Shown here piece after piece: positions 29,107 through 46,262 of a DNA stretch of 48,064 nucleotides. Numbering within the stretch: position 1 is the stretch's first letter; every line of letters starts with the position of its first letter. The notes under the pieces are model-generated. The model saw nothing but the letters and a program-made list of their open reading frames with translations. It was not told the DNA's origin and did not search any database. A program made the translations under genes and the position numbers. Source of the DNA: Methanospirillum lacunae (GTDB lineage: Archaea > Halobacteriota > Methanomicrobia > Methanomicrobiales > Methanospirillaceae); the NCBI RefSeq assembly GCF_003173355.1, contig NZ_QGMY01000010.1, positions 1 through 48,064 of the forward strand, given 5' to 3'.

Positions 29107-29784
29107 CTAATTTATCCTTTTTAAATATCCATCCGGAGCAACAGTTAATAATATTTTTTCTTCAATTTTTTTATCTATTTGAAATTTGGTGTTCTCTTTT
29201 AAAAATTCCCAGACTGCCGTTTTTGGATTATTACCTTTATCCCAAGGTCTATCTGGGAATGAGCCTTTAGGTAGATCCTCAATAGCTGTATCAAAAACGA
29301 CGCAATAACTTCCGAGAGTAACTAACGGTGAATATAACTCCAATTCTCGTAATACATGCTGATGTGTATGATTAGAATCAAGGGAAACCAATATTCTTCT
29401 GCAACCCTGGGCCATTTGAATGACTTTGTCAACGATTTCCTGACTAGTACTATCACCCTCTAACAACACGATTCGTTTATACATTGGATGTTTTTCAATT
29501 GCCTCACGGTTATGGGGTCTAATATCAATATCTATCCCTATGACTATGCCTTCTTCCCCAATTAATTCAAGCATTGAAGCCGAAAAAATAAGGGACCCCC
29601 CATGTGCAATACCGGTTTCAATTATTAAATCAGGCTTAATATTCCAGATAATCTCTTGCATTGCCATTATATCTTGAGGTATTTGAATTATCGGACGACC
29701 AAGCCATGTAAAATCGTATCCATACTTATTCTCGCTTATTGTCCTAAAATAATCTCGAGAAACTTCTAGTAAAGTTGGATCCAT
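29107..29784 (-). CDS. CmcI-family SAM methyltransferase (cephalosporin hydroxylase-like)
   Basis: A 225 aa protein of the CmcI family, whose characterised members include rhamnosyl O-methyltransferases of mycobacterial glycolipids as well as antibiotic tailoring enzymes. WLGRPIIQIPQDIMAMQEII (27-46) is typical of the N terminus. The SAM site is ETGIAHGGS (56-64), with GIDIDIRPHNR next. The acidic-histidine set SLDSNHTHQHV (134-144) is the likely metal or catalytic site, and the family's VFDTAIEDLPKGSFPDRPW follows. Its place in a glycan locus makes O-methylation of a sugar the likely job. Methylated terminal sugars often stop chain growth, which would suit an ABC-exported polymer. Confidence 0.82.
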   Translation of the reverse strand: MDPTLLEVSRDYFRTISENKYGYDFTWLGRPIIQIPQDIMAMQEIIWNIKPDLIIETGIAHGGSLIFSASMLELIGEEGIVIGIDIDIRPHNREAIEKHPMYKRIVLLEGDSTSQEIVDKVIQMAQGCRRILVSLDSNHTHQHVLRELELYSPLVTLGSYCVVFDTAIEDLPKGSFPDRPWDKGNNPKTAVWEFLKENTKFQIDKKIEEKILLTVAPDGYLKRIN

Positions 29785-29820: not shown

Positions 29821-31008
29821 TTATACTTGTATAATTGGGCACTTTATATTTTTATCTCGAAGAATCTTTCTCATTTCTATGACGTAAGAACCAGTTGGGA
29901 TAATGATTACACTATAATTTGAAATCTTATCAAAAATTTTTAAGGGTAATATCTTTTTACCCATAATGGTATGTTTTTGTTTGCTCTCATCTTTATCAAT
30001 GATCCCAATGATATTACATGCTTGTAATTCACTCATTCCAAGAATTAACCCCATATAACTTGAAAATCCCCATATATATGTGGGTAGTTGGTTTTGCATA
30101 AGTTCTTGAATATCCTTGGAATTAGCAGAGTAAGACATTAAAACATTTGTAACTGTATCAGAAAGGGTAAAATCGGGTATTTTCTGCTGTTTTAATCCCT
30201 TTTTTATTACAATATAAATACATTCTCCTTTCCCAAACCCACCTTTTATAAATGTAGTTCCCTTGAGGATCAAATCAAATCCATTATTTTTTGCTAAATT
30301 CGTGAGGTGATGATAATCAAAATGGTTGATATGTTCATGAGAGAAATCAAATAATGGATAATTATTAAAGGATGGATAATTTTTAGCATTTGGGACTTCA
30401 AGATAAACGATGCCTTCTTCCCCTAAATTTTGACTAATATATTGCAATGCTAAATTTAAGTCAAAAATATGTTCCAATACATTTGAGGCTATAATAACAT
30501 CAAATTTTGTGGAAAAAAGAGAAATCTGTTGAAAAGAACCTTGAATCGTATTAATTCCATAATTATGGTTCAAGTAATCGACAAATTGAGGAAGCAATTC
30601 TAATGCATAGAGATTAGTATATCCTTGGTTTTTTAGATTAATTAATAATCCACCTTTTCCACAACCAATATCTAGGATTTTGGATGTGCTTGGTTTATAC
30701 GATTGAATCAGTTGGGTAATTATTTCATATCGTATCAATTCTTCTGGAATGATGGATCCACTTCCAATGCAATTCCCGGTGAAATTATATTCTTTTTGTG
30801 CATAATATCTTTCGTAATCCTCTTCTTTTGAATCGGTATCGTTAAAGAGAAAACCACAACTAACACAAGCTACTAAATTATTATTTCCATGAATTGGGCA
30901 ATCATCAAACTGAATATAATTTAATGGGATTATCAATTTTACATCATTGCTTTCACAGATTGGACACTTTCTAAAGGAATTCATATTAATATCACATACC
31001 AAATTCAT
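29821..31008 (-). CDS. Zinc-ribbon SAM methyltransferase with C-terminal Rossmann-like domain
   Basis: A 395 aa three-part protein. The N terminus has a zinc ribbon, C15-x-x-C18 and C48-x-x-C51. A SAM-binding domain follows, with KILDIGCGKGGLLINL and ASNVLEHIFDLNLALQ. The last ninety residues (from about 305) form a Rossmann-like domain, with YIWGFSSYMGLIL, IIGIIDKDESKQKHTIMGKK and SVIIIPTGSY. This architecture is that of sugar C-methyltransferases of the TylC3/NovU kind, although the domains are more diverged than in the 36241-37473 protein. The start may be the second methionine (residue 9). The C-terminal domain resembles the N terminus of the adjacent radical-SAM protein. Confidence 0.78.
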   Translation of the reverse strand: MNLVCDINMNSFRKCPICESNDVKLIIPLNYIQFDDCPIHGNNNLVACVSCGFLFNDTDSKEEDYERYYAQKEYNFTGNCIGSGSIIPEELIRYEIITQLIQSYKPSTSKILDIGCGKGGLLINLKNQGYTNLYALELLPQFVDYLNHNYGINTIQGSFQQISLFSTKFDVIIASNVLEHIFDLNLALQYISQNLGEEGIVYLEVPNAKNYPSFNNYPLFDFSHEHINHFDYHHLTNLAKNNGFDLILKGTTFIKGGFGKGECIYIVIKKGLKQQKIPDFTLSDTVTNVLMSYSANSKDIQELMQNQLPTYIWGFSSYMGLILGMSELQACNIIGIIDKDESKQKHTIMGKKILPLKIFDKISNYSVIIIPTGSYVIEMRKILRDKNIKCPIIQV

Positions 31009-31108: not shown

Positions 31109-32365
31109 TTACTCATTGTGATCTATTAAAGGTTCATCAAAAACGGTTTGATAATATCTGTGATATCCTCTCTCCATACATTTTTTACATTTTATACTTT
31201 TTCTCCGAATAGATTCTATCTCTGATGCTGAAATCTTCATAAAATTTTCAGCAACAATTCCTTCTGAATAACAATTACAAAAAGCTACACTTAAATCAGA
31301 GGATATTCTCATTATTGAATAATATTCACATGGAAATGATTTGGATTCTAGTGCCAGTTCATGCGTTTTTTCGACACTATTCACTATCATCTGTTGTGCT
31401 GTTTTTATTTCATTGGGAACTTCTTTTCCTCGTAATATGTTATCTACCATCTCCAATGATAATATATTTGCATGAATTGGTCTGCATACAAAATTTAATT
31501 TCTCACACAAAATTCGAAACTTATAATAGTCCTGTATTCTATTCTTGTATAATAAGAAAAAAATTTCAATTGTTGTAGATAATTGATGTTTATCTTTAAG
31601 TTCTTTAAGTTTTAACAAATTTGAGTATAATGTTGTCCATTTTCCCCCTTGGTGTGTAATCTCATAATTATCTCCCCACCCTGAAACTGAGATCCGAATC
31701 CATGTAGGCTCCGCAAGAATAGTTTTTGTAATATCCCCTGATATTGCTAAATTTGTAGAAATACCACATCCAATATTATTTTCATTACAAATGCGGATAA
31801 ATTTATCAATATCTGGGTTTAAGAGTGGTTCACCTAAACCAAATAAATCGATTGTTCCAACAAAGGGATCCTCTGCTAATATCTTTTTTAACAGTTGTCC
31901 AAATGTTTTTACAGACATATTACATGGTTTACGCAAACTCTTTGTAATCCCAAACGAGCAAGAAATACAGGATAAATTACAATAATTTGTTGGTTGAATT
32001 AGGTACTCAAATTTTTGAATAGTAGAAAGATTATAAAAGTCTTCCCCCTCAATTAAACCTGCATTTTTGCAAATTTGGGTTATTTCAGGACCGAAAGAAC
32101 GGGTAGTGATTATTATAAACGATTTATGCTTTTCATATTGAGAATTAAAAAAGACATCTGGTGTATAGCACCGTTCATGATAAATATCCTCATTAACCAA
32201 AGGTGAACTATCGATATACCCTACAAATTTTAAATTATTTCTTACTAATACCTTTTTAATTCCCAATCCTGCATTTCGTGCTCCCCAAAGATAGATGTTT
32301 TTATCTTTAAGCTGTTGAAAGGCTTCTGAAAATTTTATAGTATCATGATTTTGATTATTTATCAT
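31109..32365 (-). CDS. Radical SAM protein with N-terminal Rossmann-like domain and SPASM-like cysteines
   Basis: A 418 aa protein. Residues 20-115 form a Rossmann-like domain: NIYLWGARNAGLGIKKVL, FVGYIDSSP and KSFIIITTRSFGPEITQI. A radical SAM domain follows, with C129-x3-C133-x2-C136 in YCNLSCISC and the later FGLGEPLLNPDI. Near the C terminus, cysteines C346, C363, C365, C393 and C396 look like a SPASM auxiliary iron-sulfur site. The N-terminal domain resembles the ones ending two C-methyltransferases in this window, which probably contact the nucleotide sugar. A radical modification of an activated sugar, such as epimerisation, oxidation or dehydration, is my inference. It lies 13 bases from the next radical SAM gene. 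No characterised homologue is recognised. Confidence 0.8.
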   Translation of the reverse strand: MINNQNHDTIKFSEAFQQLKDKNIYLWGARNAGLGIKKVLVRNNLKFVGYIDSSPLVNEDIYHERCYTPDVFFNSQYEKHKSFIIITTRSFGPEITQICKNAGLIEGEDFYNLSTIQKFEYLIQPTNYCNLSCISCSFGITKSLRKPCNMSVKTFGQLLKKILAEDPFVGTIDLFGLGEPLLNPDIDKFIRICNENNIGCGISTNLAISGDITKTILAEPTWIRISVSGWGDNYEITHQGGKWTTLYSNLLKLKELKDKHQLSTTIEIFFLLYKNRIQDYYKFRILCEKLNFVCRPIHANILSLEMVDNILRGKEVPNEIKTAQQMIVNSVEKTHELALESKSFPCEYYSIMRISSDLSVAFCNCYSEGIVAENFMKISASEIESIRRKSIKCKKCMERGYHRYYQTVFDEPLIDHNE

Positions 32366-32378
32366 TAAAATCCCGGCT

Positions 32379-33800
32379 TTAATTTATGATATTATTAATT
32401 CGTTTCGCTCGTTCGCTATAATATTTCATACTGTTAAATTTTTCCCGATACTTAATAAGGTCCTCTATACTCATAGCATAAGGTTTGATATAAAATTCAT
32501 TGTGATTATCCGCATTAAATTGAATATCCCCTTTCCAAAAGTCATTTGAGGAATATGTAGAAATTAGGCATCCCCCGGTTTCAGCACGAAAATATAGGTC
32601 TGTTTCAGGAAATGGAATTAAATTTGCTACATAGTTCATATCCAGTTTGAGTTCTTTCATTAATTGAATTGTGTCCTCTAATGTAGATGTGGTTTCTTCC
32701 GGAAATCCCATAATAAATAAACCAAATGTGAATATATCATACTTTTTACATAGTTTTGAGGCCTCCTGAATATTCTTGCGTGACACTTTTTTTCCAATAA
32801 CATGTTCACGAATGTAATCATTTCCATGCTCTATAGGTAGTTTTACCATTACACAACCTGCTTTAGATAAAGCTTCAACGACTTCTTCTTGTATATTTCC
32901 AAGATATATCCCGTTGGTAAGAGAAAACTGAATATCCAGGCCTCTATTTAAAATTTCCTGACAAATATTAAGGACATGATTCCTATTCACAGTTAAATTA
33001 TCATCAATAAATTCAAAATATCGTTGTCGGTAACGATTATACAATAATTCTATCTCATCAACAACTAATTTAGGGCTTCGTAATCGTAATTTACCTCCCA
33101 TAAATTTTTTTACCGAACAAAAAGAGCATGAAAAGGGACAGCCTCTAGAAGATAAAATGGGAACGACAAGGTTAATGTTTTGATTTTTCGGATTCCAATA
33201 TGATGAATGATCGGAATAATAATTCTCCAACTGAATTAAATTCCATAATGGAATTCCATAATCATCAAGATTTAACGAGAAAAAATTCCGAGAATTTATT
33301 ATTATTTTGGATCTTTCTCTTAAAGCCAAGGCATCAATCTTCTTAATATTATCAATATCATTTACCTGCAGAGATGATGCTAATTCAGCCATTGTTTCCT
33401 CACCTTCTCCAAGACAGATATAAGATATTTCAGGGCAATTATTCAAGATATCGTAGGCAAAATATGTTGGGTGTAACCCTCCGGTAGAGATCGGGATTTC
33501 TGGGTATGTGTTATACAGGATTTTTGCAGTCTCCCGAACCCATAAAAATTTCATGGAATCAAAACAATTCAACCCTATGAGTCCCGGCCTTTTGAGATGA
33601 ATCTCTTTTTCAATTACATCAGCAAAAAACTCCGGTGGTGAAATATTATCGGGGATATGCAGTATTGAAAAATCAATGATGATTGGGTTATGCCCTTTTT
33701 TTTGTAAATATGATGCAATATATAATATCCCCACTGGAATGGTTTCTTTATTATTTCGAACCTCCTGGGTCCTGGGAAAAGAAACAAGAATTACATTCAT
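32379..33800 (-). CDS. B12-binding-domain radical SAM protein
   Basis: A 473 aa protein. The N-terminal 150 residues form a cobalamin-binding-type domain: VGILYIASYLQKKGHNPIII, LIGLNCFDSM, STGGLHPTYFA and CLGEGEETM. The radical SAM cluster site is C221-x3-C225-x2-C228 in SSRGCPFSCSFCSVKKF. FIDDNLTVNR and IMGFPEETTSTLEDTIQLM complete the TIM-barrel motifs. This architecture covers C- and P-methylases, ring-contraction enzymes and others. In a locus with two conventional sugar C-methyltransferases, methylation of an unactivated sugar carbon or another radical rearrangement is plausible, but unproved. The gene overlaps the upstream glycosyltransferase by four bases and precedes the second radical SAM gene, suggesting they act together. 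Confidence 0.85.
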   Translation of the reverse strand: MNVILVSFPRTQEVRNNKETIPVGILYIASYLQKKGHNPIIIDFSILHIPDNISPPEFFADVIEKEIHLKRPGLIGLNCFDSMKFLWVRETAKILYNTYPEIPISTGGLHPTYFAYDILNNCPEISYICLGEGEETMAELASSLQVNDIDNIKKIDALALRERSKIIINSRNFFSLNLDDYGIPLWNLIQLENYYSDHSSYWNPKNQNINLVVPILSSRGCPFSCSFCSVKKFMGGKLRLRSPKLVVDEIELLYNRYRQRYFEFIDDNLTVNRNHVLNICQEILNRGLDIQFSLTNGIYLGNIQEEVVEALSKAGCVMVKLPIEHGNDYIREHVIGKKVSRKNIQEASKLCKKYDIFTFGLFIMGFPEETTSTLEDTIQLMKELKLDMNYVANLIPFPETDLYFRAETGGCLISTYSSNDFWKGDIQFNADNHNEFYIKPYAMSIEDLIKYREKFNSMKYYSERAKRINNIIN

Positions 33801-35155
33801 AAATTATTTTTTCCCTTACAAATTGAATTAGTTAAATCACACAAAGTTTTCAGTTGCATATCATCAGGAAAAAAGGAGAAATAATGAAAAACACTCCCCT
33901 TTGATGGACTACAAAAAATCGGAGACATAGACTCTGTAATACCTAAAGTATGAATATCTCTATTATTTGGAAGTGATAATAAATTAGAATAGAGATGGGA
34001 TATTTTTGTTTCACCTAATGATAATAAAAATAATTTACATCCCATATTAGGGTGGTTTATAGGATTATTATTTGAATCTTTAAGAACATGGTTTTTTTGA
34101 GGTATTTTTAATAATTCGCGATATATCTTATGCCAGCGATTCCGAGTTTTTTTAATACTCATCTTATGAATAACTTGATCTATGGCATATTCTGCCATTT
34201 TTTGCCTGATATTTGGATTATAGTAAAGGAATTCAATAGCCTTTTGATATTCCTCAATGGTGGATGCAACAATACCTGATTTATATTGTTCAACAATAAA
34301 TCGTTCAGGGCCATTATCAAGAACCACAGGGACAACTCCACATGCCATTGCTTCTATAAGAACTTGCTCACCCGTTCCATAATTTTCTTTGCACAAGGGG
34401 TAACCAAATACATCAAGTTTTGACAAAATTGGTTTAATATTTTTTAGGGGTCCTGTAAAATCAAATATATTCAGGTACCCTTTATCATCTGCTTCTTTTT
34501 GCAGATGATTATGGTCATCTCCCCCGCAAACAATAAATTTTTTATCTGGAATTTGAATAGAATAACATATTTCTAAAAAATCGCGATGCATTTTTGAATA
34601 AGAAACAGTTCCAATATATCCGATATTAAAAAATGAATGATCTAAATGATGAACTCCTTCAACATGTTCATATCCTGCGGTTTCAAAAACAAGTTTTAAG
34701 TTTTTTTCTCTCCACTCTACAGTTTGTCTTTTGATGGCATCTGAGGATAAACTATATTCTGTAGATATTACAAAAAAGTCTGGATAAAGTAAAACCTGAT
34801 CTGTGAAAATGTTTGGTGGATGATGACCATTTACATGAGACCATATCACAGCTCTAAATTGGGGAAAAGAATCGATAGATAAAAATCGATATAGTAATGG
34901 ATGATTCCAGAAATGAATATGCACAATATCAGTTTCTTTTATTTTGCTTTCTAACAACTGATAATCGGTAATCCCATTCTCAAATAATTCGATTCCAAAT
35001 TTTTTAGACCATTCTTTTGTATCGTTGTTTGCATAATCAAGGCAGATTAATTGATGAAAAAAATCTTCTTGTTCATGAGATGATCCAATAAAATTACGTA
35101 GAACACGCCCAACACCTCCTCCCATGTGAGGAACAATATGTAATATTTTGTACAT
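33797..35155 (-). CDS. GT4 glycosyltransferase with C-terminal extension
   Basis: A 452 aa GT-B enzyme. It begins YKILHIVPHMGGGVGRVLRN, a clear GT4 start, with IVHIHFWNHPLLYRFL in the acceptor domain. The donor domain has GYIGTVSYSKMHRDFLE and LCKENYGTGEQVLIEAMACG with the E-x7-E site. The GT part ends near residue 375. About 75 further residues (from MGCKLFLLSLGETKIS) are unlike a GT4 domain and unexplained. ATG 35155 has an AGGA box ten bases upstream. The stop overlaps the B12-radical SAM gene by four bases. The link to the radical SAM genes suggests this enzyme uses the sugar they modify. Confidence 0.82.
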   Translation of the reverse strand: MYKILHIVPHMGGGVGRVLRNFIGSSHEQEDFFHQLICLDYANNDTKEWSKKFGIELFENGITDYQLLESKIKETDIVHIHFWNHPLLYRFLSIDSFPQFRAVIWSHVNGHHPPNIFTDQVLLYPDFFVISTEYSLSSDAIKRQTVEWREKNLKLVFETAGYEHVEGVHHLDHSFFNIGYIGTVSYSKMHRDFLEICYSIQIPDKKFIVCGGDDHNHLQKEADDKGYLNIFDFTGPLKNIKPILSKLDVFGYPLCKENYGTGEQVLIEAMACGVVPVVLDNGPERFIVEQYKSGIVASTIEEYQKAIEFLYYNPNIRQKMAEYAIDQVIHKMSIKKTRNRWHKIYRELLKIPQKNHVLKDSNNNPINHPNMGCKLFLLSLGETKISHLYSNLLSLPNNRDIHTLGITESMSPIFCSPSKGSVFHYFSFFPDDMQLKTLCDLTNSICKGKNNL

Positions 35156-35276: not shown

Positions 35277-36164
35277 TCATTTTTTTTCCCTCAAGAAATT
35301 CTCATCATTTTTCAATAGAAGATTATGTATTTTTTTCCCCTCCCCCCAAAAAGCCATTGGTTCATATTCTTGGTAAGGAAAATAACCTAGATTTAGGTTT
35401 AATCCAGATCCATGTGAGAGAATATATTCCTCCACTAATCGTCGAATGGAAATTGGATTCCCACTACAACAATTTATCACTCCATTACATTCTGGATGTT
35501 CTGCAACCAATGCAATTCGGTGGGCTACTTCCTCCACGGGAAGATAATCGCGTAGTTGCTCACCACCTGACATATTAAATATGTCATCTTTATGATCTAA
35601 TGCTGAATTAAGCTGAGCAAAAAGGCTATTTGGATTTTGGCCAGTTCCGTAAGTGTAAAAGAGACGGACCCATTGAAGTGTGAAGGAAATATTTTGTTGA
35701 TATATTTGTAAAAATTTACGTAGTGTGTCTTTCGCTATCCCATACGAAGTAATAGGTTCAGTATGGGTTTCTTCAGATAACTTTCCATATTGCATACCAT
35801 ATTCCAAACATGTTCCAGCAACTAAGACCTGTTTTACTCCAGATTTTACCATCTTTATAATAAAATGGTAACTCGCAGGAAGATTTTCCTCATAATGGAA
35901 CATTGCATGATAATTCGGAAGACCAGCCCAGGCCAAATGAATCAAGATTTCTGGTTCTCCGAACAACTCTCTTATATTTAAGTTTGGATCTTGCATATCA
36001 GCAATAACAAATTTAACCTTCCCCCACCAAGAAAGTAGTTCTGCCTTTTTCTGATGACGCGAAAAAGCGATGACGTTATGCCCTTTATTATGGAGTTCAT
36101 TAACGACATGATGGCCAATAAACCCTGTGGCTCCAGTAACCAATATAGTTTTCTTTTTACTCAT
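35277..36164 (-). CDS. NAD(P)-dependent sugar 4-ketoreductase/epimerase (SDR)
   Basis: A 295 aa extended SDR. The cofactor site ILVTGATGFIGHH lies near residues 7-19. The catalytic serine or threonine is in VLVAGTCLEYGMQYG, and SYGIAKDTLRKF supplies the Y-x3-K pair. LYFYTYGTGQNP-like LFYTYGTGQNPNSLF follows, then the C-terminal RDYLPVEEVA block. It resembles CDP-abequose/paratose/tyvelose-type and RmlD-type reductases. It is the last gene of the CDP-sugar group, 76 bases after the C-methyltransferase, which fits a final 4-keto reduction. The stereochemistry cannot be read from the sequence. Confidence 0.78.
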   Translation of the reverse strand: MSKKKTILVTGATGFIGHHVVNELHNKGHNVIAFSRHQKKAELLSWWGKVKFVIADMQDPNLNIRELFGEPEILIHLAWAGLPNYHAMFHYEENLPASYHFIIKMVKSGVKQVLVAGTCLEYGMQYGKLSEETHTEPITSYGIAKDTLRKFLQIYQQNISFTLQWVRLFYTYGTGQNPNSLFAQLNSALDHKDDIFNMSGGEQLRDYLPVEEVAHRIALVAEHPECNGVINCCSGNPISIRRLVEEYILSHGSGLNLNLGYFPYQEYEPMAFWGEGKKIHNLLLKNDENFLREKK

Positions 36165-36240: not shown

Positions 36241-37473
36241 TCATCTTAATATTGTGATAGAGGGGATTGGGGCGACTAAAATTCCACCCCATTCTGATAT
36301 ATATTTCAAGTTAGAAGAAATTTCGCTGGAGATATTCCAGGGAAATACTATCACAACATCCGGTTTATCCTCTTTAATCCTATTAGGATGATATATTGGA
36401 ATATGTGATCCAGGAAGAAAAAAACCCTGTTTATGTGGCGAAGCATCAACTACATATCTGATAAGATTGGTTCCTTTAATACCGCAGGCATTAAGTAATG
36501 TATTTCCTTTCGCAGCAGCTCCATATCCTATTACTAATTTCCCGTCTTGTTTTTTTTCAAGCAGAAAACTCATAAACTTTTCCGTAATTTCTTCGACTTT
36601 CTTTTGAAAATCAATATATCGTTCAGAAGTATTTAAACCATACTTTTTTTCTTCAGCAATACAATCAGTAACAGTTTTATTGCATGGATATCTTTTTGAT
36701 TCTGCATGACATGCATAAATTCTCAATGATCCACCATGAGTGGGTAATCTTTCAATATCATAGATTCGAAGACGATGTCGGGAGAAGAGTTCTAGTACTG
36801 TCATCAATGAAAGATAAGAATAATGTTCATGGTAGATAGTATCAAATTGGACTTTCCTCAATAACTCCAAAATGTGTGGAAATTCCATTGTGATGGTTCC
36901 TTCTGGTGATAAAATCAATTTAAGACTCTCAACAAACCCGTTGATGTCAGGTACGTGAGCAAGAACGTTATTACCGATAACCAAATCTTGAGTACCATTT
37001 TTATCAATAATTTCTTGAGCAACCCGAATCGAAAAAAAATCCCGAATCGTTTCAATACCTCGCTCCTCTGCAGATTCAGCCGGCCCTGTCGCTGGATCTA
37101 CTCCGATACAGGGAATACCATTCTCCACAAAAAATTGAAGCAGATACCCATCATTAGATGCTATCTCAAGTACCTTTGACTTTTGATGAAGCCCCAAACG
37201 AGGAATGATCATAGAGACGTATTCATATGCGTGATTTACCCAGGATATTGAATATGAGCTGAAATAACGGTAATCCCTTGAGAATATATCTATTGCTTGC
37301 TTATATTGATCAATCTGCATCAACCAACATGACTCACAAACCAGAACTCTTAACGGATAGTAGATCTCAGGTAAGTTGAGCTCTTTTGAGGATAAGTAAC
37401 CATTCGAAGGAGGAGCATGATTGAGATCGCAGACAATACGCGAAATTGGGGAACCACACAACCTGCAATTCAT
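36241..37473 (-). CDS. Sugar-nucleotide C-methyltransferase (TylC3/NovU-like)
   Basis: A 410 aa protein of the C-methyltransferase family that adds a methyl group to C3 of 4-keto-6-deoxy nucleotide sugars. The N-terminal zinc site is C3-x-x-C6 and C46-x-x-C49. The SAM motif is VLEIASNDGYLLQFF, and HEHYSYLSLMTVLELF is the usual active-site region with a histidine pair. The C-terminal third starts VIGYGAAAKGNTLLNAC and ends with a VDASPHKQGFFLPGSHIPI block, the family's Rossmann-like domain. It overlaps the 3,5-epimerase gene by four bases. In this gene order it probably makes a CDP-3-C-methyl-6-deoxyhexose. Confidence 0.88.
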   Translation of the reverse strand: MNCRLCGSPISRIVCDLNHAPPSNGYLSSKELNLPEIYYPLRVLVCESCWLMQIDQYKQAIDIFSRDYRYFSSYSISWVNHAYEYVSMIIPRLGLHQKSKVLEIASNDGYLLQFFVENGIPCIGVDPATGPAESAEERGIETIRDFFSIRVAQEIIDKNGTQDLVIGNNVLAHVPDINGFVESLKLILSPEGTITMEFPHILELLRKVQFDTIYHEHYSYLSLMTVLELFSRHRLRIYDIERLPTHGGSLRIYACHAESKRYPCNKTVTDCIAEEKKYGLNTSERYIDFQKKVEEITEKFMSFLLEKKQDGKLVIGYGAAAKGNTLLNACGIKGTNLIRYVVDASPHKQGFFLPGSHIPIYHPNRIKEDKPDVVIVFPWNISSEISSNLKYISEWGGILVAPIPSITILR

Positions 37474-38021
37474 AAAATTACCCCCAAAAAGTCGCTGTTA
37501 ATATACTGGTGATTTAGATCCCGCTCTGAAATTTCTCCAATTTGAATCGGCCACTTAATTGCAATTTTTGGATCCATAACTGAAAGGCCGTCCTCACATT
37601 CTGGTGAATAATAATTGGTATGAAAATATAGGAGCTCTGAATTGCTTGATAAAACTTGGAACCCATGAGCACACCCCTCAGGAATGACAATCATTTTGTG
37701 TTCCTCTTCTGATAGAATAACCCCAAACCACTTCAAAAATGTTGGCGAGTTCGTCCTGATATCGACCACTACGTCAAATACCTTTCCCCTGATGCACTGA
37801 ATTAGCTTCATCTCAGCTTTTGGAGGATACTGAAAATGCAGACCGCGTATAGTACCAGATGTTCGGGTATAAGAGTGGTTAATCTGAGCAATATGACGGT
37901 TACCCATAATCTTTACAAGTTCTTCTGCACAATAAAGACGTGAAAACCATCCCCGTTCATCTGATATGCGTTGTAATTCTACAATAAAAACGCCGGAAAT
38001 TGATGTCTCTATAAAGATCAT
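37470..38021 (-). CDS. RmlC-like sugar 3,5-epimerase
   Basis: A 183 aa cupin of the dTDP-4-dehydrorhamnose 3,5-epimerase family. It has DERGWFSRLYCAEEL, HSYTRTSGTIRGLHFQYPP with the catalytic histidine, KAEMKLIQCIRGKVFDVVVD with the conserved lysine, PEGCAHGFQVLS, and LLYFHTNYYSPECEDGL in place of the usual LYKTTDYYAP. The family normally acts on 4-keto-6-deoxy sugars. Sitting between CDP-glucose dehydratase and a C-methyltransferase, it probably epimerises CDP-4-keto-6-deoxyglucose at C3 and/or C5 before or after methylation. In related clusters this enzyme is needed to reach the right isomer. It overlaps both neighbours by four bases. Confidence 0.85.
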   Translation of the reverse strand: MIFIETSISGVFIVELQRISDERGWFSRLYCAEELVKIMGNRHIAQINHSYTRTSGTIRGLHFQYPPKAEMKLIQCIRGKVFDVVVDIRTNSPTFLKWFGVILSEEEHKMIVIPEGCAHGFQVLSSNSELLYFHTNYYSPECEDGLSVMDPKIAIKWPIQIGEISERDLNHQYINSDFLGVIL

Positions 38022-39103
38022 TTAACCAGATCCATGTATTCAATAATATCCTGAATTGATCTGGAAGAAACCAGATTACCGTTGTAGAGATAATCGTAAT
38101 ACCAATTCGCTGTCTTCTCAATTGCTTGTTGGTTTTTCCAGAGTGGTGACCATCCTAAAATATCGCGACTTTTTTCAACAGAAAGGTTAAGTACAGGTGT
38201 TTCATGAAAATCAGATGACTTCACAACAGGTTTTGCACACTTCTCAGGCCAAGCCCCAATAAATCGATCTATTAATTCCTGAACTGTCAGACAATCATTG
38301 CTATCAGGACCAAAATTGAATGCCGAACAGAATGTCTCCTCCCTTGTTGTTAGAAGTGTACTAGCTAGGAGCAGATATCCATACAATGGTTCAAGAACAT
38401 GTTGCCATGGTCTGATAGCTTGTGGATTTCGTAGAATTATCGGTTCTTTTGCAACAATGGAACGAAACATATCCGGGATAATTCGGTCAGATGCAAAATC
38501 ACCACCTCCAATGACATTTCCTGCACGGACAGTTGCAAGAGCAATTTGGTGTTCATTCAGTTTTTCAGGAGTAAAATATGAACATCTATAAGATTCGCAG
38601 ATGATCTCAACTGCTGCCTTACTGGCACTATATGGATCTGACCCCCCTAGTCGGTCACTTTCCTGAAAGCAGGAAGTTCTCCCTTCAACCGCATAGCACT
38701 TATCACTGGTTACAATGATTACTATGACTGGTTGCCCATTTTCTCTAATCGCCTCAAGTAGAGCGATAGTTCCCATAATATTCACATCATGGGTTTCTCT
38801 TGGATTAAGATACCCATAGGTGACTAAAGGCTGAGCGGCAAAATGAAAGATTACATCCGGACGAAATTCCATAAGAACTTTCTTAAGAATATCCCGATCT
38901 CTGATATCTGCCAATAGTTCATCATGTAAGTATTCCTTAATTCCAACTATATTATAATGGGATTCAGCAGCTGCAGGTAAGGAATATCCATATACATGTG
39001 AACCGATGAGGGAAAGCCATAGAGTAAGCCATGATCCTTTAAAACCGGTATGTCCGGTAATAAAAGTTTTTTTCCCGGTAAATATATCAATAGGAGAGGT
39101 CAC
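38018..39103 (-). CDS. rfbG: CDP-glucose 4,6-dehydratase
   Basis: A 361 aa SDR that converts CDP-glucose to CDP-4-keto-6-deoxyglucose. The cofactor site is KTFITGHTGFKGSW (residues 12-25), which distinguishes RfbG from dTDP-glucose dehydratases. FHFAAQPLVTYGYLNPRET follows. TSDKCYAVE and DPYSASKAAVEIICESYR give the catalytic threonine and Y-x3-K. ATVRAGNVIGGGDFASDRI and WQHVLEPLYGY are RfbG hallmarks. It overlaps rfbF upstream and the epimerase downstream by four bases, so the CDP-sugar genes form one operon. Length is standard for the family. Confidence 0.92.
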   Translation of the reverse strand: MTSPIDIFTGKKTFITGHTGFKGSWLTLWLSLIGSHVYGYSLPAAAESHYNIVGIKEYLHDELLADIRDRDILKKVLMEFRPDVIFHFAAQPLVTYGYLNPRETHDVNIMGTIALLEAIRENGQPVIVIIVTSDKCYAVEGRTSCFQESDRLGGSDPYSASKAAVEIICESYRCSYFTPEKLNEHQIALATVRAGNVIGGGDFASDRIIPDMFRSIVAKEPIILRNPQAIRPWQHVLEPLYGYLLLASTLLTTREETFCSAFNFGPDSNDCLTVQELIDRFIGAWPEKCAKPVVKSSDFHETPVLNLSVEKSRDILGWSPLWKNQQAIEKTANWYYDYLYNGNLVSSRSIQDIIEYMDLVK

Positions 39104-39885
39104 TGGGGGGGCACCTTCCAGAATGCCTTATTTTCTGCCCAAAGGTGATTTAAATATTGAACATCACGAAGTGTATCCATACATGCCCATTTTCCTGAGT
39201 GCCGATATATCATCAATTCTCCCTTTTCAGCAAGTAACTCTAATAATCCTGTCTCAAAATCACATAAATCATCCAAAGTTAGATAATCGAAGATTTTCCG
39301 ATTACAAATATAATATCCTCCGTTGACATAATGAGTTGATACCTCAGGTTTTTCCTTGAATTTCACAATCTGATCCCCTATTATTTTCATCTCGCCGAAC
39401 TGGGAAGCTGGAGAGACCCCGGTCAGAGTTACCATCTTTCCATGAGACTGATGGAAAGTAATTAACTGATCGAGATTGAGATCTGATAAGCCGTCTCCAT
39501 AGGTCATAAGAAAGAGGTCATCATGTACGAACTTTTCAATTCTTTTAATACGGGCACCTTTCAAACTTAATTCTCCGGTATCAACGAGAGTAACCTTCCA
39601 ACCGGCAACCTCATCATGACGGGGATAAAAGGTCATCTTACTCTCTGCTCCGAATTCTATGGAGACATCGGAGTTCATAAGTTCATAATGATAGAAATAC
39701 TCTTTTATCTGATCCCCCTTATAACCCAATGCTAAAATAAATTCCTGATGTCCGAATCGGGAGTATAACTGCATGATATGCCAGAGAATTGGTCTACCTC
39801 CAATAGGAACCATCGGTTTTGGACGAAATTCGGTTTCTTCTTTAAGACGGGTCCCCAGACCACCACAGAGTATTACGACCTGCAT
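39100..39885 (-). CDS. rfbF: Glucose-1-phosphate cytidylyltransferase
   Basis: A 261 aa nucleotidyltransferase that makes CDP-glucose from CTP and glucose-1-phosphate, the first step of the CDP-deoxysugar path. The N-terminal signature is LCGGLGTRLKEETEFRPKPM, followed by GGRPILWHIMQLYSR and ILALGYKGDQIKEYF. FLMTYGDGLSDLNLDQL gives the metal site and GEMKIIGDQIVKFKEKP the sugar-binding region. The WKVTLVDTGELSLKGARI stretch is specific to RfbF. The ATG at 39885 has an AGGAG box nine bases upstream (39896-39900), and the 318-base gap before it probably holds the promoter of the five-gene CDP-sugar operon. Confidence 0.93.
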   Translation of the reverse strand: MQVVILCGGLGTRLKEETEFRPKPMVPIGGRPILWHIMQLYSRFGHQEFILALGYKGDQIKEYFYHYELMNSDVSIEFGAESKMTFYPRHDEVAGWKVTLVDTGELSLKGARIKRIEKFVHDDLFLMTYGDGLSDLNLDQLITFHQSHGKMVTLTGVSPASQFGEMKIIGDQIVKFKEKPEVSTHYVNGGYYICNRKIFDYLTLDDLCDFETGLLELLAEKGELMIYRHSGKWACMDTLRDVQYLNHLWAENKAFWKVPPQ

Positions 39886-40203: not shown

Positions 40204-41508
40204 TTATCCTATTTGATCCACATTCCATTCTAAAGATGGTCTGATAACTCCCGGTATCACACCGCCGTATCCTGATATTCGTGAAGGAACACCCTCAATG
40301 GGATCTGTTATATTAAACATAAGAGCATGTTTTTCCCAAAAACTAACCCTCATCCCAGTATGAATAAAGGTGAGAGCAAGATGGACTGAATACAACCCAT
40401 CGTTCATAAAATTAGCAGGGATCTCACACTTTGCAATATATTCACCGGATTTACATGATTGATCATAATTCCATGAGGGACTCGTGATAAATGCACATTG
40501 TCCCTGACTATCATATATATGAAAATTTGGGGAAGGGATTTTTGGAACATCGTTGAGTATTTTATATTGCATACAAATAAAGAATGATTTATTAATTGAA
40601 ATTTCAAAAACCTGCTCTCCCGAACGGTTTTCTATCCATGCTGCGCACAAGGTTCCTTGATGATCTCCTGGAGGGTTATCTACATGTGAATAATCAATAG
40701 TGGCAGGATTAACACAATTATTACCCATCTGATATGAAGCAATGACATCACTAGTATGTCCGATAAGTTTTATTTTTCCCGAATCTAACAATATGCACTC
40801 ATTGCATAGAGAAGATATCATAGGCATATTATGGCTTACGAATAAAACTGTCCTCCCACCTTTAGATATCTCTTGCATCTTTCCCAAACACTTTTTCTGG
40901 AAATCTGCATCCCCAACCGCTAAAACCTCATCAACCACTAAAATCTCCGGCTCCATATGGGCTGCTACAGCAAATGCAAGACGGACATACATGCCACTTG
41001 AATAACGCTTAACTGGGGTATCAATAAATTTATCTACTCCGGAAAATGAAACGATTTCATCAAATTTTGAATTTATTTCATTTTTCGTCATTCCTAATAT
41101 TGCACCATTTAAAAAAATATTCTCTCTGCCGGTCAGTTCAGGATGAAACCCAGTTCCTACCTCTAATAAACTTGCGATACGTCCTTTCACATTTATTTTA
41201 CCGGATGTAGGTGCTGTCACTCGTGATAATATTTTTAATAATGTAGACTTTCCAGCACCATTACGTCCGATGATGCCAAGAATATCTCCTTTCCTGACTT
41301 CAAATGAAATATCTTTAAGTGCCCAAAATTGTTCATTTGAACCGGTTTTAAATCCTAATAACTCAGAATTCACTTTTGTATTAGGGTCATCCCTCCCAAG
41401 AAATCTTGCCCATTTGCTTTGGAGGTCTTTTGATAATAATCCATGACTTATTACCCCAAGGCGATACTGCTTAGAAAGATTCTTTATCTGGATCACTACA
41501 TCATTCAT
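40204..41508 (-). CDS. wzt: Polysaccharide ABC exporter ATP-binding subunit with C-terminal substrate domain (Wzt-like)
   Basis: An ATPase of an ABC-2-type polysaccharide exporter, working with the permease next to it. I start at ATG 41508 (MNDVVIQIKNLSKQYRLG), which lies 16 bases after the permease stop with GAGGGAAG just upstream. The frame opens earlier, at 41577, which would overlap the permease. The Walker A motif GRNGAGKST is near residues 81-89. The signature YSSGMYVRLAFAVAAHMEP, Walker B EILVVDEVLAVGD and switch FVSHN follow. After residue 240 comes a roughly 190-residue beta-rich domain, as in Wzt proteins that recognise the chain end of their O-antigen. About 434 aa. Confidence 0.9.
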   Translation of the reverse strand: MNDVVIQIKNLSKQYRLGVISHGLLSKDLQSKWARFLGRDDPNTKVNSELLGFKTGSNEQFWALKDISFEVRKGDILGIIGRNGAGKSTLLKILSRVTAPTSGKINVKGRIASLLEVGTGFHPELTGRENIFLNGAILGMTKNEINSKFDEIVSFSGVDKFIDTPVKRYSSGMYVRLAFAVAAHMEPEILVVDEVLAVGDADFQKKCLGKMQEISKGGRTVLFVSHNMPMISSLCNECILLDSGKIKLIGHTSDVIASYQMGNNCVNPATIDYSHVDNPPGDHQGTLCAAWIENRSGEQVFEISINKSFFICMQYKILNDVPKIPSPNFHIYDSQGQCAFITSPSWNYDQSCKSGEYIAKCEIPANFMNDGLYSVHLALTFIHTGMRVSFWEKHALMFNITDPIEGVPSRISGYGGVIPGVIRPSLEWNVDQIG

Positions 41509-41524
41509 ATTTCTTCCCTCATGA

Positions 41525-42379
41525 CTACACAGTATCCATGAAGGTCTTTTCGACCTTGTTGAAAAGTAGTATTCCAAAGATCAGAATGATCACTGTCATG
41601 ATAATACTCATTTCCCATACCCAAGGTCGTATTGCTCCACTCCCGAGAAAAGCATATCTGAATACCTCAACAATTGCAGTCATTGGGTTTAATGCAAAGA
41701 TCCATTGCCATTTCTCCGGGATCTGTGAAAGTGGATAGACTATTGGGGTTGCATACATCCAGAGTTGTACCCCAAATCCCACTGCAAAGATAAGATCTCG
41801 ATACTTCGTTGTCAGACTGGATATGAGGATGCCCATTCCAAGACCTAATGCTGCCATTTGGATAAGGAGCAGAGGGATAACAATGATCCATAATGTTAAC
41901 TTAACCGATGATCCAACTAATATATAATAACCTAAGAATATCAGAAACAGACTAAACTGGATAAAAAAAGTCAACAGGTTCGTGATCACCACAGATATGG
42001 GTACTACCAACCGGGGAAAATATACTTTGCCAAATATTCCGGCGTTTTCAATAAAGGTATTCGAAGTCTTAGTCATACAATTTGCAAAGTATGTCCAAGC
42101 AACAATACCTGCCATGTAAAACAGGATTTGTGGTATCCCATCAGTCGGGATTTGTGCAATATTTCCAAATACTACTGTGAATACGATGGTTGTGAATAAT
42201 GGTTGTAAAAAGAACCAGACTGGTCCGAGTATTGTCTGTTTATAAATTGATACAAAATCTCGTCGGACAAGGAGGAGAATAAGATCCCTATAACGCCAGA
42301 TTTCAGCAAGATTGATATCAAGCCATCCGGCTCGTGGACGGATCTCTAAAGTCCAATTAGTGTCTGTTATCTTATTCAT
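41525..42379 (-). CDS. wzm: Polysaccharide ABC exporter permease (Wzm-like)
   Basis: A 284 aa ABC-2-type permease with about six membrane helices. The N-terminal cytoplasmic part reads WRYRDLILLLVRRDFVSIYK, then QTILGPVWFFLQPLFTTIVF, a hallmark of Wzm/TagG proteins. Later helices include NLLTFFIQFSLFLIFLGYY, LLLIQMAALGLGMGILIS and a C-terminal MTVIILIFGILLFNKVEK. The gene is followed 16 bases later by its ATPase partner. Together they export a finished polymer from the cytoplasm. No Wzx flippase or Wzy polymerase is recognisable in this window, so ABC-dependent export is the likely route for at least one polymer. Confidence 0.9.
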   Translation of the reverse strand: MNKITDTNWTLEIRPRAGWLDINLAEIWRYRDLILLLVRRDFVSIYKQTILGPVWFFLQPLFTTIVFTVVFGNIAQIPTDGIPQILFYMAGIVAWTYFANCMTKTSNTFIENAGIFGKVYFPRLVVPISVVITNLLTFFIQFSLFLIFLGYYILVGSSVKLTLWIIVIPLLLIQMAALGLGMGILISSLTTKYRDLIFAVGFGVQLWMYATPIVYPLSQIPEKWQWIFALNPMTAIVEVFRYAFLGSGAIRPWVWEMSIIMTVIILIFGILLFNKVEKTFMDTV

Positions 42380-42582: not shown

Positions 42583-43614
42583 TTATACCTCCAGTTCCGC
42601 TAATAAATGGCGAATTTCCTCTTTTGATAGCAATGGCAAATCTCTTGATGAATATATTCCTTCTGATAATTCTCTGAATCCTGCAGGAATATTAGGCTTT
42701 ATAGTTTTATTCCCATATGGTCTTTCCTTTGGCAAAATTAGGTACATGCTATCACTTTCATATGCAGCGATGGTTTCATCTGTAGTCATGAGTACTTCAT
42801 CGATTTTTTCACCACCCCTCAATCCTATGATTTGTGTTTCAATATCATTTGGAGTATATCCGTAATGTGATGCAAACATTTCCTTCATTACCTCTCCAAG
42901 GTCCTGTATCCTAATTACCGGCATTTTAAGGATAAATATTTCTTTTCCCTCAGCAAGTATTCCTGCTATAAGTATGAGTTTTGCAGCAGATGGGATATCC
43001 ATTATAAATCGTCTCATATCTGGATGTGTGATGGAAATGGGACCCCCCTTTCTTATTTGTTTTAGAAATGTCGGGATAACCGATCCACGGGAATTAAGGA
43101 CATTACCAAATCTAACACAGGAAAAGGCGGTTTTCTTATGTCCTCGATAAGAATTCGCAGAAATAGTGAGACGTTCTGCAAGAAGTTTGGTTGCACCCAT
43201 TACATTCGAAGGGTTTACTGCTTTATCTGTACTAACAGTAATAATTTTTCCGACTCCCTGAATCAGGCCTGCTTCGAGAACGTTTTGTGTTCCGAGCACA
43301 TTGGTCTTAATCGCGTCAAAGGGGTTAAATTCACAAATTGGCACATGTTTAAGAGCTGCTGCATGGAAGACGATATCAACATGTTCCATTGCCATAACTA
43401 ACCTTGCTTTATCTCTGATATCACCAATGAGTGGTCTCAATTTTTGTGAGTTAAGATCCTGTTCAAGATCAAAGAGAGCTGTCTCATTATTATCAAAAAC
43501 ACGGATAAATTCCGGATCAAGTTGAATGATCTCCCTAACCAGAACAGATCCAATGGATCCCACCCCGCCGGTTATCAATACCCTTTTTCCTTGGTAAAAA
43601 TCTTTGAGATTCAT
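42583..43614 (-). CDS. legB: UDP-GlcNAc 4,6-dehydratase, LegB-like
   Basis: A 343 aa SDR of the FlaA1/CapD/PglF family, which starts nonulosonic-acid synthesis by making a UDP-4-keto-6-deoxy-HexNAc. The cofactor site LITGGVGSIGS is at 13-23. HAAALKHVPICEFNPFDAI is the family hallmark. The catalytic segment STDKAVNPSNVMGATK (128-143) has methionine M139 where PseB has tyrosine; that SMK arrangement is typical of C5-retaining dehydratases and points to legionaminic rather than pseudaminic acid. RFGNVLNSRGSVIP and PDMRRFIM follow. It overlaps the aminotransferase gene by four bases and closes the operon. Confidence 0.85.
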   Translation of the reverse strand: MNLKDFYQGKRVLITGGVGSIGSVLVREIIQLDPEFIRVFDNNETALFDLEQDLNSQKLRPLIGDIRDKARLVMAMEHVDIVFHAAALKHVPICEFNPFDAIKTNVLGTQNVLEAGLIQGVGKIITVSTDKAVNPSNVMGATKLLAERLTISANSYRGHKKTAFSCVRFGNVLNSRGSVIPTFLKQIRKGGPISITHPDMRRFIMDIPSAAKLILIAGILAEGKEIFILKMPVIRIQDLGEVMKEMFASHYGYTPNDIETQIIGLRGGEKIDEVLMTTDETIAAYESDSMYLILPKERPYGNKTIKPNIPAGFRELSEGIYSSRDLPLLSKEEIRHLLAELEV

Positions 43615-44741
43615 TGATTTTCCTGATAAAACTCTCCCACTGCTTCAACAACTGTCCTTAAGTCTTCATCAGACATTCCAGGATATATGGGCAGACTTAC
43701 AATATTTTCAGCCACTGTTTCAGTAATGGGAAGCGATATCTCATATCCGAGTTTTTTCTTATAATAATGAGTAAGATGAACCGGTGGGAAATATATCTTG
43801 CTCATTATGCCCTTTGAGGTCAGAAATTCCATAAGTCTGTTTCTATCTAATAATCGGACTGAAAATAATTGATATACATGATCATACCCGTATGGGGATA
43901 GCATAGGCGATGCTTTAGGCGCATATTTTTTAAGAAGAGTGACATATTTTTCAGCAATCTTTTTTCTCATTTGGATCATTGTATCAACTTTCTGAAGTTG
44001 AGTTAACCCAAGTGAAGCAGCTATATTTGAAAGCCTGAAATTATATCCTAAGGTGATATAATCCATTGGTTCCTGGGATGAAAAATAATCCGATGTCTCA
44101 AGTCGTCCATGGGATCTGATAAGTTTCATCTTTTCATAGAGTTTCCGTGAGTCGGTTACAATTGCTCCTCCCTCTCCTGTAGTGATTATTTTATTCTGGC
44201 AGAATGAGAGCATGGCTGAATCTCCAAATGTTCCAACTTTCACTCCTTTTATTTTTGCGCCAAAGGATTCTGCAGCATCTTCAATCAGAATCAGGTTATG
44301 ATCATCTGCAATTTCCCGCAATTCATGTATCATGCAGGGGCATCCACCATAATGCACTGGAATGATTGCCTTTGTTTTCGGAGTGATGTGTTCAAGGACA
44401 CTTTCAGGGCTCAGACCAAGGGTTTTCTCTTCGATATCAGCAAATACCGGTTTCGCCCCGACAAACAATGGAGCGTTTGCTGTCGCGATGAAAGTAAATG
44501 ACGGAACAATAACCTCATCACTCTTTCCGACCTCATAGGCAAGTAGCGAAGCATGAAGTGCTGAAGTTCCAGAGTTGAAAGTCAGACAGTATTTTGTTCC
44601 GATATTTTCTGAAAGATCATGTTCAAAATGGGTAACTTCTGATCCAACTGCCCAATTCATCCCAGAAGAAAGAGTAGTCGTTATTGCATTGAGATCATTT
44701 TGATCCCAATACATCTTAAAAAGTGGTATATTCCAAGTCAT
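43611..44741 (-). CDS. legC: DegT-family aminotransferase, LegC/PseC-like
   Basis: A 376 aa PLP enzyme that aminates the 4-keto group produced by the adjacent dehydratase. The N terminus MTWNIPLFKMYWDQNDL lacks a signal. FNSGTSALHASLLAYE binds the phosphate, LIEDAAESFGAKIKG holds the cofactor aspartate and SFCQNKIITTGEGG contains the PLP lysine K184. YNFRLSNIAASLGLTQL is the substrate loop. Four-base overlaps on both sides show tight coupling with legB and the acyltransferase. The family also covers perosamine and other aminotransferases; context makes a nonulosonate role most likely. Confidence 0.85.
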   Translation of the reverse strand: MTWNIPLFKMYWDQNDLNAITTTLSSGMNWAVGSEVTHFEHDLSENIGTKYCLTFNSGTSALHASLLAYEVGKSDEVIVPSFTFIATANAPLFVGAKPVFADIEEKTLGLSPESVLEHITPKTKAIIPVHYGGCPCMIHELREIADDHNLILIEDAAESFGAKIKGVKVGTFGDSAMLSFCQNKIITTGEGGAIVTDSRKLYEKMKLIRSHGRLETSDYFSSQEPMDYITLGYNFRLSNIAASLGLTQLQKVDTMIQMRKKIAEKYVTLLKKYAPKASPMLSPYGYDHVYQLFSVRLLDRNRLMEFLTSKGIMSKIYFPPVHLTHYYKKKLGYEISLPITETVAENIVSLPIYPGMSDEDLRTVVEAVGEFYQENQ

Positions 44742-45160
44742 ATTGTGGTATTAACTTCATTTTTAGATATTTTCCGAATAACCTTTGCTGGTACACCATA
44801 AGCAATCACTCCTTGAGGAACATTAGCATTCACAAAACTGAAGGCCCCAATTATAGATCCTTCACCTATAGTTACTCCTGGCATTATCACCGAATGTGTC
44901 CCAATACAACACCTCTTCTTAAGAACAACCTTCCCTTGTTTCTTGTCAATTGTCGAGATAGAATAAATTGAGCAATGAGATCCTATTTGCACTAGTTCTT
45001 CTATCTCAACTCCATACTTAGCATTAATGTAGGTAAATGCTCCAATATCGGTTTTGTACCCTAGTTTAAAATTATCAACACATTTAACAATCCAGTGAAA
45101 TTTTGTTGGTTCGCCATCAATGATCTCTGGATAATTCCAGGTTTCGAATCTTTCATTCAT
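44738..45160 (-). CDS. Left-handed beta-helix acyltransferase (probable N-acetyltransferase, LegH-like role)
   Basis: A 140 aa hexapeptide-repeat protein. It begins with an ERFETWNYPEIIDG segment, then a beta-helix: IGAFTYINAKYGVEIEE, VQIGSHCSIYSISTID, KKRCCIGTHSVIMPGVTIG, EGSIIGAFSFVNANV and GVIAYGVPAKVIRKI. These repeats match O- and N-acetyltransferases of polysaccharide clusters such as WlbB/WbpD. The gene sits between the aminotransferase and the nonulosonate synthase, where LegH or PseH normally acts. N-acetylation of the 4-amino group is therefore likely, although LegH and PseH can belong to other acetyltransferase folds. It overlaps legC by four bases. Confidence 0.8.
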   Translation of the reverse strand: MNERFETWNYPEIIDGEPTKFHWIVKCVDNFKLGYKTDIGAFTYINAKYGVEIEELVQIGSHCSIYSISTIDKKQGKVVLKKRCCIGTHSVIMPGVTIGEGSIIGAFSFVNANVPQGVIAYGVPAKVIRKISKNEVNTTI

Positions 45161-45209
45161 AAGGATATATGTTTAAAATTGGAGCATAAAACTCAGTGAA
45201 TCAAACCTA

Positions 45210-46262
45210 TTATTTGAGGTCACTCCATTCTAACCATTCATCAGCTTCAAAATCACGATTAACTTGCCTACCGATAACATATCGGAATTCATCCGGATGT
45301 ATTCCGGTACCTGGTCTTTTGTAATCAATATCCCCAAAACTTATAACTTCTCCTTCCTTCATTGGTTGTCGAATAACGATTCTTCGTCGGAATTTTTTCC
45401 TCTTCTCCTCTTCTTCATCGGTTACCGTTCTGACTGCCGACCCAATAGATGTAAAAACATTACAACCTTCACGTACTATTATTTCCATCTCATTTGGATT
45501 TGCAGATATCGCGTGATCCCAACCATCCATTTCTTTATCTAATGTAAAATGTTTTTCAATGATACATGCTCCAATGGCAATGGCAGCAAGGGGGATCGCA
45601 GTACCAAGGGTGTGATCACTAAACCCTACAGGAAGGTCGAATGCCATTTGTAACATAGGGATATTTTTTAGATGGATGGTATTGTAGGCTGGAGGATATA
45701 TAGAAACACAGTGTAACAGAGCTATTGGCCCGGATCCATTCTTCTTCAGTGTATTCACCGCTCGTTCAATCTCTCCAAGAGTGGCCATACCGGTAGATAG
45801 AATTACTGGCTTTCCTTTCCCCCCGATATATTCAAGTAAAGGAATATGATTGATATCCATGGATGCAATTTTAAATGCCGGTATAGCTAATGACTCAAGG
45901 AGATCAACTTCTTCTTTTGAGAAACAACTGGAAAGAAAAGTCATGCCCTTTTCTTTACAGTAATGCAATATCTCCTTATGTTGCTGTGGAGTAAACTGGT
46001 ATCGCTCCACCATCTCCAACAAAGAGCCAAAATGCTTTTTTTTATCTGCATACTGGGTGTTTCGGCTGTATTCTGTTAGGGATATTAATGAACCTGCAGA
46101 CCATGATTGAAATTTTACTGCATCAACTCCTGATAACACCGCTGCATCAATCATTTGTCTACACAGATTCATATCTCCATTATGGTTTGATCCTATCTCA
46201 GCGATAATATAGGGTTTTTCACCAGAACCAATGGGCCGATTATTAATTATCAGTTTTTCCAT
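45210..46262 (-). CDS. legI: Nonulosonic acid synthase (NeuB/LegI/PseI family)
   Basis: A 350 aa PEP-dependent synthase that condenses a 6-deoxy-diamino-hexose with phosphoenolpyruvate to give the nine-carbon sugar. The TIM-barrel domain has YIIAEIGSNHNGDMNLCRQM, VDAVKFQSWSAGSLIS, MTFLSSCFSKEEVDLLES, IPAFKIASMDI, KPVILSTGMATLGEI, GFSDHTLG and the ACIIEKHFTLDKEMDGWDHA segment. A short SAF-type domain at the end (EVISFGDIDYKRPGTGI) completes the standard NeuB layout. The gene overlaps the preceding glycosyltransferase by 13 bases. It cannot be fixed as LegI, PseI or NeuB from the sequence alone, but the LegB type favours legionaminate. Confidence 0.85.
   Translation of the reverse strand: MEKLIINNRPIGSGEKPYIIAEIGSNHNGDMNLCRQMIDAAVLSGVDAVKFQSWSAGSLISLTEYSRNTQYADKKKHFGSLLEMVERYQFTPQQHKEILHYCKEKGMTFLSSCFSKEEVDLLESLAIPAFKIASMDINHIPLLEYIGGKGKPVILSTGMATLGEIERAVNTLKKNGSGPIALLHCVSIYPPAYNTIHLKNIPMLQMAFDLPVGFSDHTLGTAIPLAAIAIGACIIEKHFTLDKEMDGWDHAISANPNEMEIIVREGCNVFTSIGSAVRTVTDEEEEKRKKFRRRIVIRQPMKEGEVISFGDIDYKRPGTGIHPDEFRYVIGRQVNRDFEADEWLEWSDLK

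Follow-up and report, generated by a model that had tools for sequence, protein, structure and literature searches.

Gene content of the locus

The window, the whole 48,064-nucleotide stretch analysed from Methanospirillum lacunae (contig NZ_QGMY01000010.1), carries two adjacent radical SAM genes on the reverse strand, at 31109–32365 and 32379–33800. As an earlier note on this DNA had it, the two are exactly 13 bases apart and the second overlaps the gene of a GT4 glycosyltransferase (33797–35155), here by 4 bases. The GT4 protein has a conserved C-terminal extension and serves as the marker of a cassette whose other members also lie on the reverse strand. On the low-numbered side of the pair are a zinc-ribbon SAM methyltransferase with a C-terminal Rossmann domain (29821–31008), a conserved cassette member, and a protein of the CmcI/rhamnosyl O-methyltransferase family (29107–29784) that recurs at 55–65% identity in the cassettes of Smac51, G668, G640 and G587 described below. 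Beyond GT4 lie an SDR of the epimerase/reductase family (35277–36164), a C-methyltransferase of the Methyltransf_13/14 type (36241–37473; orthologues in G640 and G587 at 48–51%), an RmlC-type 3,5-epimerase (37470–38021), CDP-glucose 4,6-dehydratase (rfbG, 38018–39103) and glucose-1-phosphate cytidylyltransferase (rfbF, 39100–39885), the last three scoring above the cut-offs of TIGR01221, TIGR02622 and TIGR02623, respectively. The glycan export genes Wzt (with Wzt_C) and Wzm occupy 40204–42379. Since the locus has Wzm/Wzt and does not sit beside the archaellins, whose six matches in this archaeon are on other contigs, its target may be some other glycan of the cell surface than in the flagellin-linked cassettes described below. 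The rRNA of the host also marks it as an archaeon, fitting the archaeal SSU model at 1541 bits and the bacterial one at 1114, and from the 16S sequence we take it to be a Methanomicrobiales-like methanogen. Pseudaminic/legionaminic-type genes (Polysacc_synt_2, DegT, hexapeptide, NeuB and CMP-transferase) adjoin Wzm/Wzt at 42583–47886, and two ORFs of about 600 aa in the glycan region (10790–12649 and 16151–17953) have no Pfam match. Rfam returned no RNA element in the window.

Taken alone the adjacent pair is unremarkable, because the host genome holds 35 radical SAM matches, a number from which chance alone would yield about 0.35 adjacent pairs, and several other close pairs are present. Radical SAM genes lie within a few genes of GT4 in 8 of 9 GT4-family loci, with a rough binomial p of ~3e-9 that overstates the significance because the loci are assumed to be independent. 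It is the conservation of the arrangement, not adjacency, that exceeds chance.

Domains and nearest relatives of the two enzymes

The 418-residue product of 31109–32365 has a radical SAM core (Radical_SAM, 38.5 bits, above the Pfam cut-off) whose CX3CX2C motif (C129/C133/C136; 31958–31981) is invariant in 17 relatives. Equally invariant in the 17 are C346, C363, C393, C396 and H402 (31160–31330), the cysteines being spaced CX16CX29CX2C. The earlier note had called the protein SPASM-like on account of its C-terminal cysteines; these are present, but the invariant set is of four, whereas SPASM proteins have a seven-cysteine motif and two auxiliary clusters. With four predicted ligands and one auxiliary cluster, the enzyme is by its sequence of the BtrN-type twitch class. 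BtrN, which carries out a two-electron oxidation, has an auxiliary cluster with four cysteines; in MoaA, by contrast, an iron site is open (PMC9012708).

The earlier note overlooked a separate Rossmann domain made up of the first ~110 residues (taken as residues 1–118; 32012–32365). Once the AI-designed barrel 7mcd, the top match, is discarded as an artefact, the family N-domain profile matches the N-domain of UDP-QuiNAc 4-dehydrogenase (3nkl), VioB, PglD and PerB; it also matches the NAD-binding Rex, which counts against the explanation favoured below. TIGR03570 (NeuD) matches 7 of the 17 family members and PF17836 (PglD_N) reaches 22.8 bits in a class C member against a Pfam cut-off of 23.4. 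Taken by itself, the N-domain of the archaeal protein matches nothing in Pfam, another point against that explanation. Domains of the PglD/NeuD type bind sugar nucleotides, and by analogy we infer the same role here. The resemblance to the NeuD, PglD and VioB sugar acetyltransferases is confined to this domain, which is joined to a radical SAM core rather than to a hexapeptide acyltransferase domain. The same Rossmann domain forms the C-terminal fusion of the neighbouring methyltransferase at 29821–31008 (hhalign probability 98.6), as if it were a shared substrate-holding module. Further fusions of a NeuD/PglD-like Rossmann module are to an FkbM methyltransferase and, it appears, to a different radical SAM protein (L064:14330-15466; L063:6410-7735).

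Profile comparison of the twitch family with the PDB ranks BtrN first (1.3e-8), followed by a tetraether lipid synthase, AbmM, a sactipeptide-type enzyme and DesII; the best sequence relatives include BtrN, AbmM, DesII and BlsE, enzymes of sugar or sugar-like substrates. BtrN, a 2-deoxy-scyllo-inosamine dehydrogenase, shares the radical SAM core and four-cysteine twitch, but its PDB chain of ~270 residues lacks the N-terminal Rossmann domain, its substrate is an aminocyclitol and it occurs singly, not as a family in tandem. AlphaFold gives a good model of the window enzyme (pLDDT 83.8, pTM 0.86), whose structural neighbours mix sugar and nucleotide enzymes (DesII, Z 18.9; BlsE, 17.7; BtrN, 16.1; MoaA; viperins) with the peptide SPASM enzymes SuiB, which ties with DesII at Z 18.9, and anSME. 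The equal scores of these peptide-modifying enzymes count against the favoured explanation, and because the scores of the two groups are so close the fold cannot settle the substrate. DesII, the TDP-4-amino-4,6-dideoxyglucose deaminase, is a radical SAM enzyme too and acts on a nucleotide deoxysugar; it differs in belonging to an antibiotic pathway and in having an N-domain of six helices and a single cluster (PMC11434129).

The second enzyme (32379–33800, 473 aa) is, as the earlier note proposed, a radical SAM protein with a predicted B12-binding domain, scoring 57.6 bits with PF02310 and 79 bits with PF04055, both above the Pfam cut-offs, and we place it on this basis in the B12-dependent radical SAM superfamily. 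Its C221/C225/C228 motif (33117–33140) is invariant across four orthologues. The AlphaFold model was too poor (pLDDT 47.8) and was excluded from the analysis. Among PDB profiles the sugar diol-dehydratase AprD4 is nearest to the family (1.5e-24), followed by MgmA, TsrM, TokK and CysS, a group of methylases; the window protein keeps its B12-binding domain above cut-off, and it scores only 64.6 bits of the 500 required by the NCBIfam AprD4 family (NF033070) and 53 of the 400 for TIGR04295 (B12_rSAM_oligo). The enzyme is probably a C-methyltransferase or a deoxygenase.

Neither protein reaches a curated NCBIfam cut-off (N_Twi_rSAM, NF033640: 38.1 bits against 170), and most of the weak family matches are to maturases, which counts against the explanation favoured below. 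The best NCBIfam names of the pair, TIGR04317 and BchE, would suit the maturation of a cofactor or metalloenzyme, with a tungsten oxidoreductase maturase and a BchE-like tetrapyrrole cyclase lying in a glycan locus by chance. We consider this very improbable: the scores are far below cut-off (61.8 of 380 bits for TIGR04317, 189 of 481 for BchE, TIGR02026), the annotated ORFs of the window include no such target genes, and the glycan context is kept across two domains of life.

Distribution and variants of the cassette

Only four other genomes, all of them Desulfobacterota, yielded relatives with all three domains. Searching plasmids by tblastn led to Deltaproteobacteria bacterium Smac51, from cockroach gut, whose 65-kb plasmid carries six twitch paralogues (27–40% identity) and a B12 orthologue (34%) and was the sole return of a genome-contig scan. 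When 395 genomes of the Smac51 phylum were searched by profile, G745, G691 and G668 were added, with full-length relatives of at least 430 bits against at most 135 bits for all generic radical SAM proteins. No other full-length relative emerged from protein searches within the archaeal family (108 genomes) and the archaeal phylum (393), and viral contigs and phages gave none. The searches centred on two phyla, Halobacteriota (that of the window) and that of Smac51, each sampled by 200 to 400 genomes, and some searches scored no more than the few best candidates in a genome, so that the rarity of the family holds for these samples and the genome-contig patterns.

The loci of G745, G691 and G668 have rfbF, rfbG, RmlC, SDR, tandem radical SAM genes, GT4 and the zinc-ribbon methyltransferase in common with the window, and some of them also have CmcI and the B12 enzyme. 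In the stretch of the Smac51 plasmid that was read the rfbFG-RmlC-SDR set is absent, and homologues of GT4, the methyltransferase, CmcI and the B12 enzyme are kept among other sugar genes. GT4 and the methyltransferase are found in all four Desulfobacterota, the CDP-glucose genes with SDR in three and the B12 enzyme in three; counting the window, four of five full-length-family loci have the CDP-sugar genes. Every one of these loci is of glycan type with GT4, the co-occurrence that the earlier note had suggested looking for, and the relatives do not lie mostly outside glycan loci, a finding that would have told against its reading. The cassette is conserved between an archaeon and Desulfobacterota, that is, between two domains of life, and it appears to be rare and to have moved between lineages of anaerobes. 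The Smac51 cassette also contains a PPDK-like protein, a nucleotidyltransferase and an adenylylsulfate kinase-like protein (L013, 37992–44484), which suggests a phosphate-containing decoration.

The idea of an obligate one-to-one pair does not survive the comparison, given that the loci hold one to six twitch enzymes and that G691 showed no B12 enzyme close by. In a profile search of 317 genomes, B12 orthologues of at least 748 bits occur in three of the four Desulfobacterota genomes with the full-length family; the next best (480 bits) is in G550, in a different region of sugar genes close to a motB-like flagellar gene, and all others score at most 314 bits. The exception among GT4 loci is G627 (GT4 at 265 bits), where the fetched part of the locus contains no radical SAM gene.

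Each Desulfobacterota genome has several twitch copies (3, 3, 4 and 6), most of which fall into three orthologous classes across loci in a maximum-likelihood tree. Support is good for classes B (99/95) and C (100/99) and weaker for class A (91/94), which contains the window enzyme and is drawn open; the positions of two or three Smac51 copies and of the fourth one in G745 are less clear. Only class A is kept in the archaeon. The archaeal copy forms a long branch and lacks two near-invariant residues, the W177 and H271 positions both being Leu, and both features count against the explanation favoured below. The three classes agree with the conserved gene order of G691 and G668 and, in part, of G745, and the classes together with the conserved order argue for separate, fixed reactions.

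In G668 the cassette adjoins flgK, flgL, a TPR/GT2 gene, flagellin fliC, flaG, fliD and fliS, recognised by sequence reading rather than by family search, and the G691 cassette is likewise flagellin-adjacent as judged from gene order, size and homology. Searching with GT4 revealed two more cassettes, in G640 and G587, with another radical SAM family between SDR and GT4, 58–66% identical to a Brachyspira plasmid protein; that of G587 adjoins fliC and fliD homologues. The flagellin genes abutting the G668 and G691 cassettes, and the frequency with which SPASM/twitch and B12 radical SAM enzymes act on peptides, would fit enzymes that modify flagellin or another polypeptide, for example by C-methylation or cross-linking, rather than a sugar. 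This is improbable, in our judgement, for the constant partners are sugar genes, no flagellin lies beside the cassettes of the window, the Smac51 plasmid or the Brachyspira plasmid, the archaellins of the archaeon are elsewhere as noted, and no obvious precursor peptide ORF is found near the window genes.

The plasmid of Brachyspira hyodysenteriae WA1 carries a GT4 orthologue (392 bits), rfbF, RmlC, SDR and seven radical SAM genes in tandem, and part of this rfb/radical SAM block is absent from low-virulence strains (PMC4267127). Its radical SAM proteins are, unlike those of the window, of other subfamilies without the Rossmann fusion, and no B12 enzyme is among the genes compared; on its gene content we class the block as a variant of the window cassette. 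The block (L105, NC_012226 6000–26000) also has a HAD protein like G691:C89:151198-153375.

Proposed chemistry of the pair

The context supports well a glycan-modifying role for the pair, which we regard as highly likely, and the pair probably remodels a surface sugar in a way not yet described. The earlier note had suggested that it rearranges, C-methylates or epimerises an activated or transferred sugar; the conserved glycan context agrees with sugar modification, but 36241–37473 is already an ordinary C-methyltransferase candidate, so that the radical enzymes are not needed for C-methylation of the CDP-sugar. The best overall explanation, which we consider somewhat favoured, is a CDP-6-deoxyhexose cassette with a BtrN-like oxidation by the twitch enzyme and C-methylation or deoxygenation by the B12 enzyme, in which we infer the substrate, the binding of the nucleotide and all of the reactions.

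In this scheme rfbF, rfbG, RmlC, SDR and the C-methyltransferase would make a CDP-6-deoxyhexose, GT4 would transfer a sugar and, in the archaeon, Wzm/Wzt would export the product. The twitch enzyme would act on the deoxyhexose, as a nucleotide sugar or just after its transfer, or on the growing glycan, its NeuD-like N-domain holding the nucleotide part. A 5'-deoxyadenosyl radical formed by the core would take hydrogen from a carbinol carbon and the four-cysteine twitch cluster would accept an electron, as in BtrN, leaving a keto sugar that an SDR could re-reduce for a net epimerisation; the B12 enzyme would most likely C-methylate or deoxygenate another, unactivated carbon. We favour carbinol oxidation because of the four invariant twitch cysteines, the sugar-nucleotide-type N-domain and the lack of any further invariant cysteine beyond the seven cluster ligands in the 17-member alignment. 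Even so, the assignment of the twitch enzyme as an oxidoreductase is tentative, and dehydration or other sugar chemistry is unlikely.

The main competing explanation is a redox-neutral radical epimerase like NeoN and AviX12, in which the twitch enzyme inverts a carbon of a sugar or oligosaccharide by returning hydrogen from a side chain, the tandem classes serving different positions. The same glycan context and paralogue classes would suit it, and EpeE is among the structural neighbours of the twitch model. The lack of a spare invariant cysteine as hydrogen donor disfavours a Cys-type epimerase, C287 being Cys in 15 of 17 members and in a predicted helix; a residue other than Cys may be the donor, and we rate an epimerase overall as rather doubtful.

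Going further, we can picture, as a speculative but not far-fetched proposal, a dedicated radical SAM pathway in which up to six NeuD-radical SAM-twitch fusions would remodel different carbons of a CDP-derived sugar or assembled glycan and the B12 enzyme would add carbon, giving sugars beyond classical SDR chemistry from a cassette mobile among archaea, sulfate reducers and spirochaetes. To our knowledge, radical SAM enzymes acting on sugars come mainly from antibiotic pathways, and none of the open-access papers that we found describes such enzymes in loci for flagellar or surface glycans, apart from a listing of the Brachyspira genes. If the proposal is right, a conserved cassette with one to six sugar radical SAM enzymes in two domains of life would open a set of rare-sugar chemistries to study. 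It also offers a biochemical hypothesis for the Brachyspira hyodysenteriae block, whose absence correlates with reduced virulence (PMC4267127).

Two other loci came to light in the searches. On the Solidesulfovibrio plasmid pDCAR1 (L120, NZ_CP026539 70000–96000) radical SAM genes lie next to each other and to pseudaminic acid genes, but their products are related to the pair only remotely and the locus was set aside. In L103/L104 (G544:C72) many B12 and twitch radical SAM genes, among them an adjacent B12/radical SAM pair, are interleaved with GT2 and GT4 genes.
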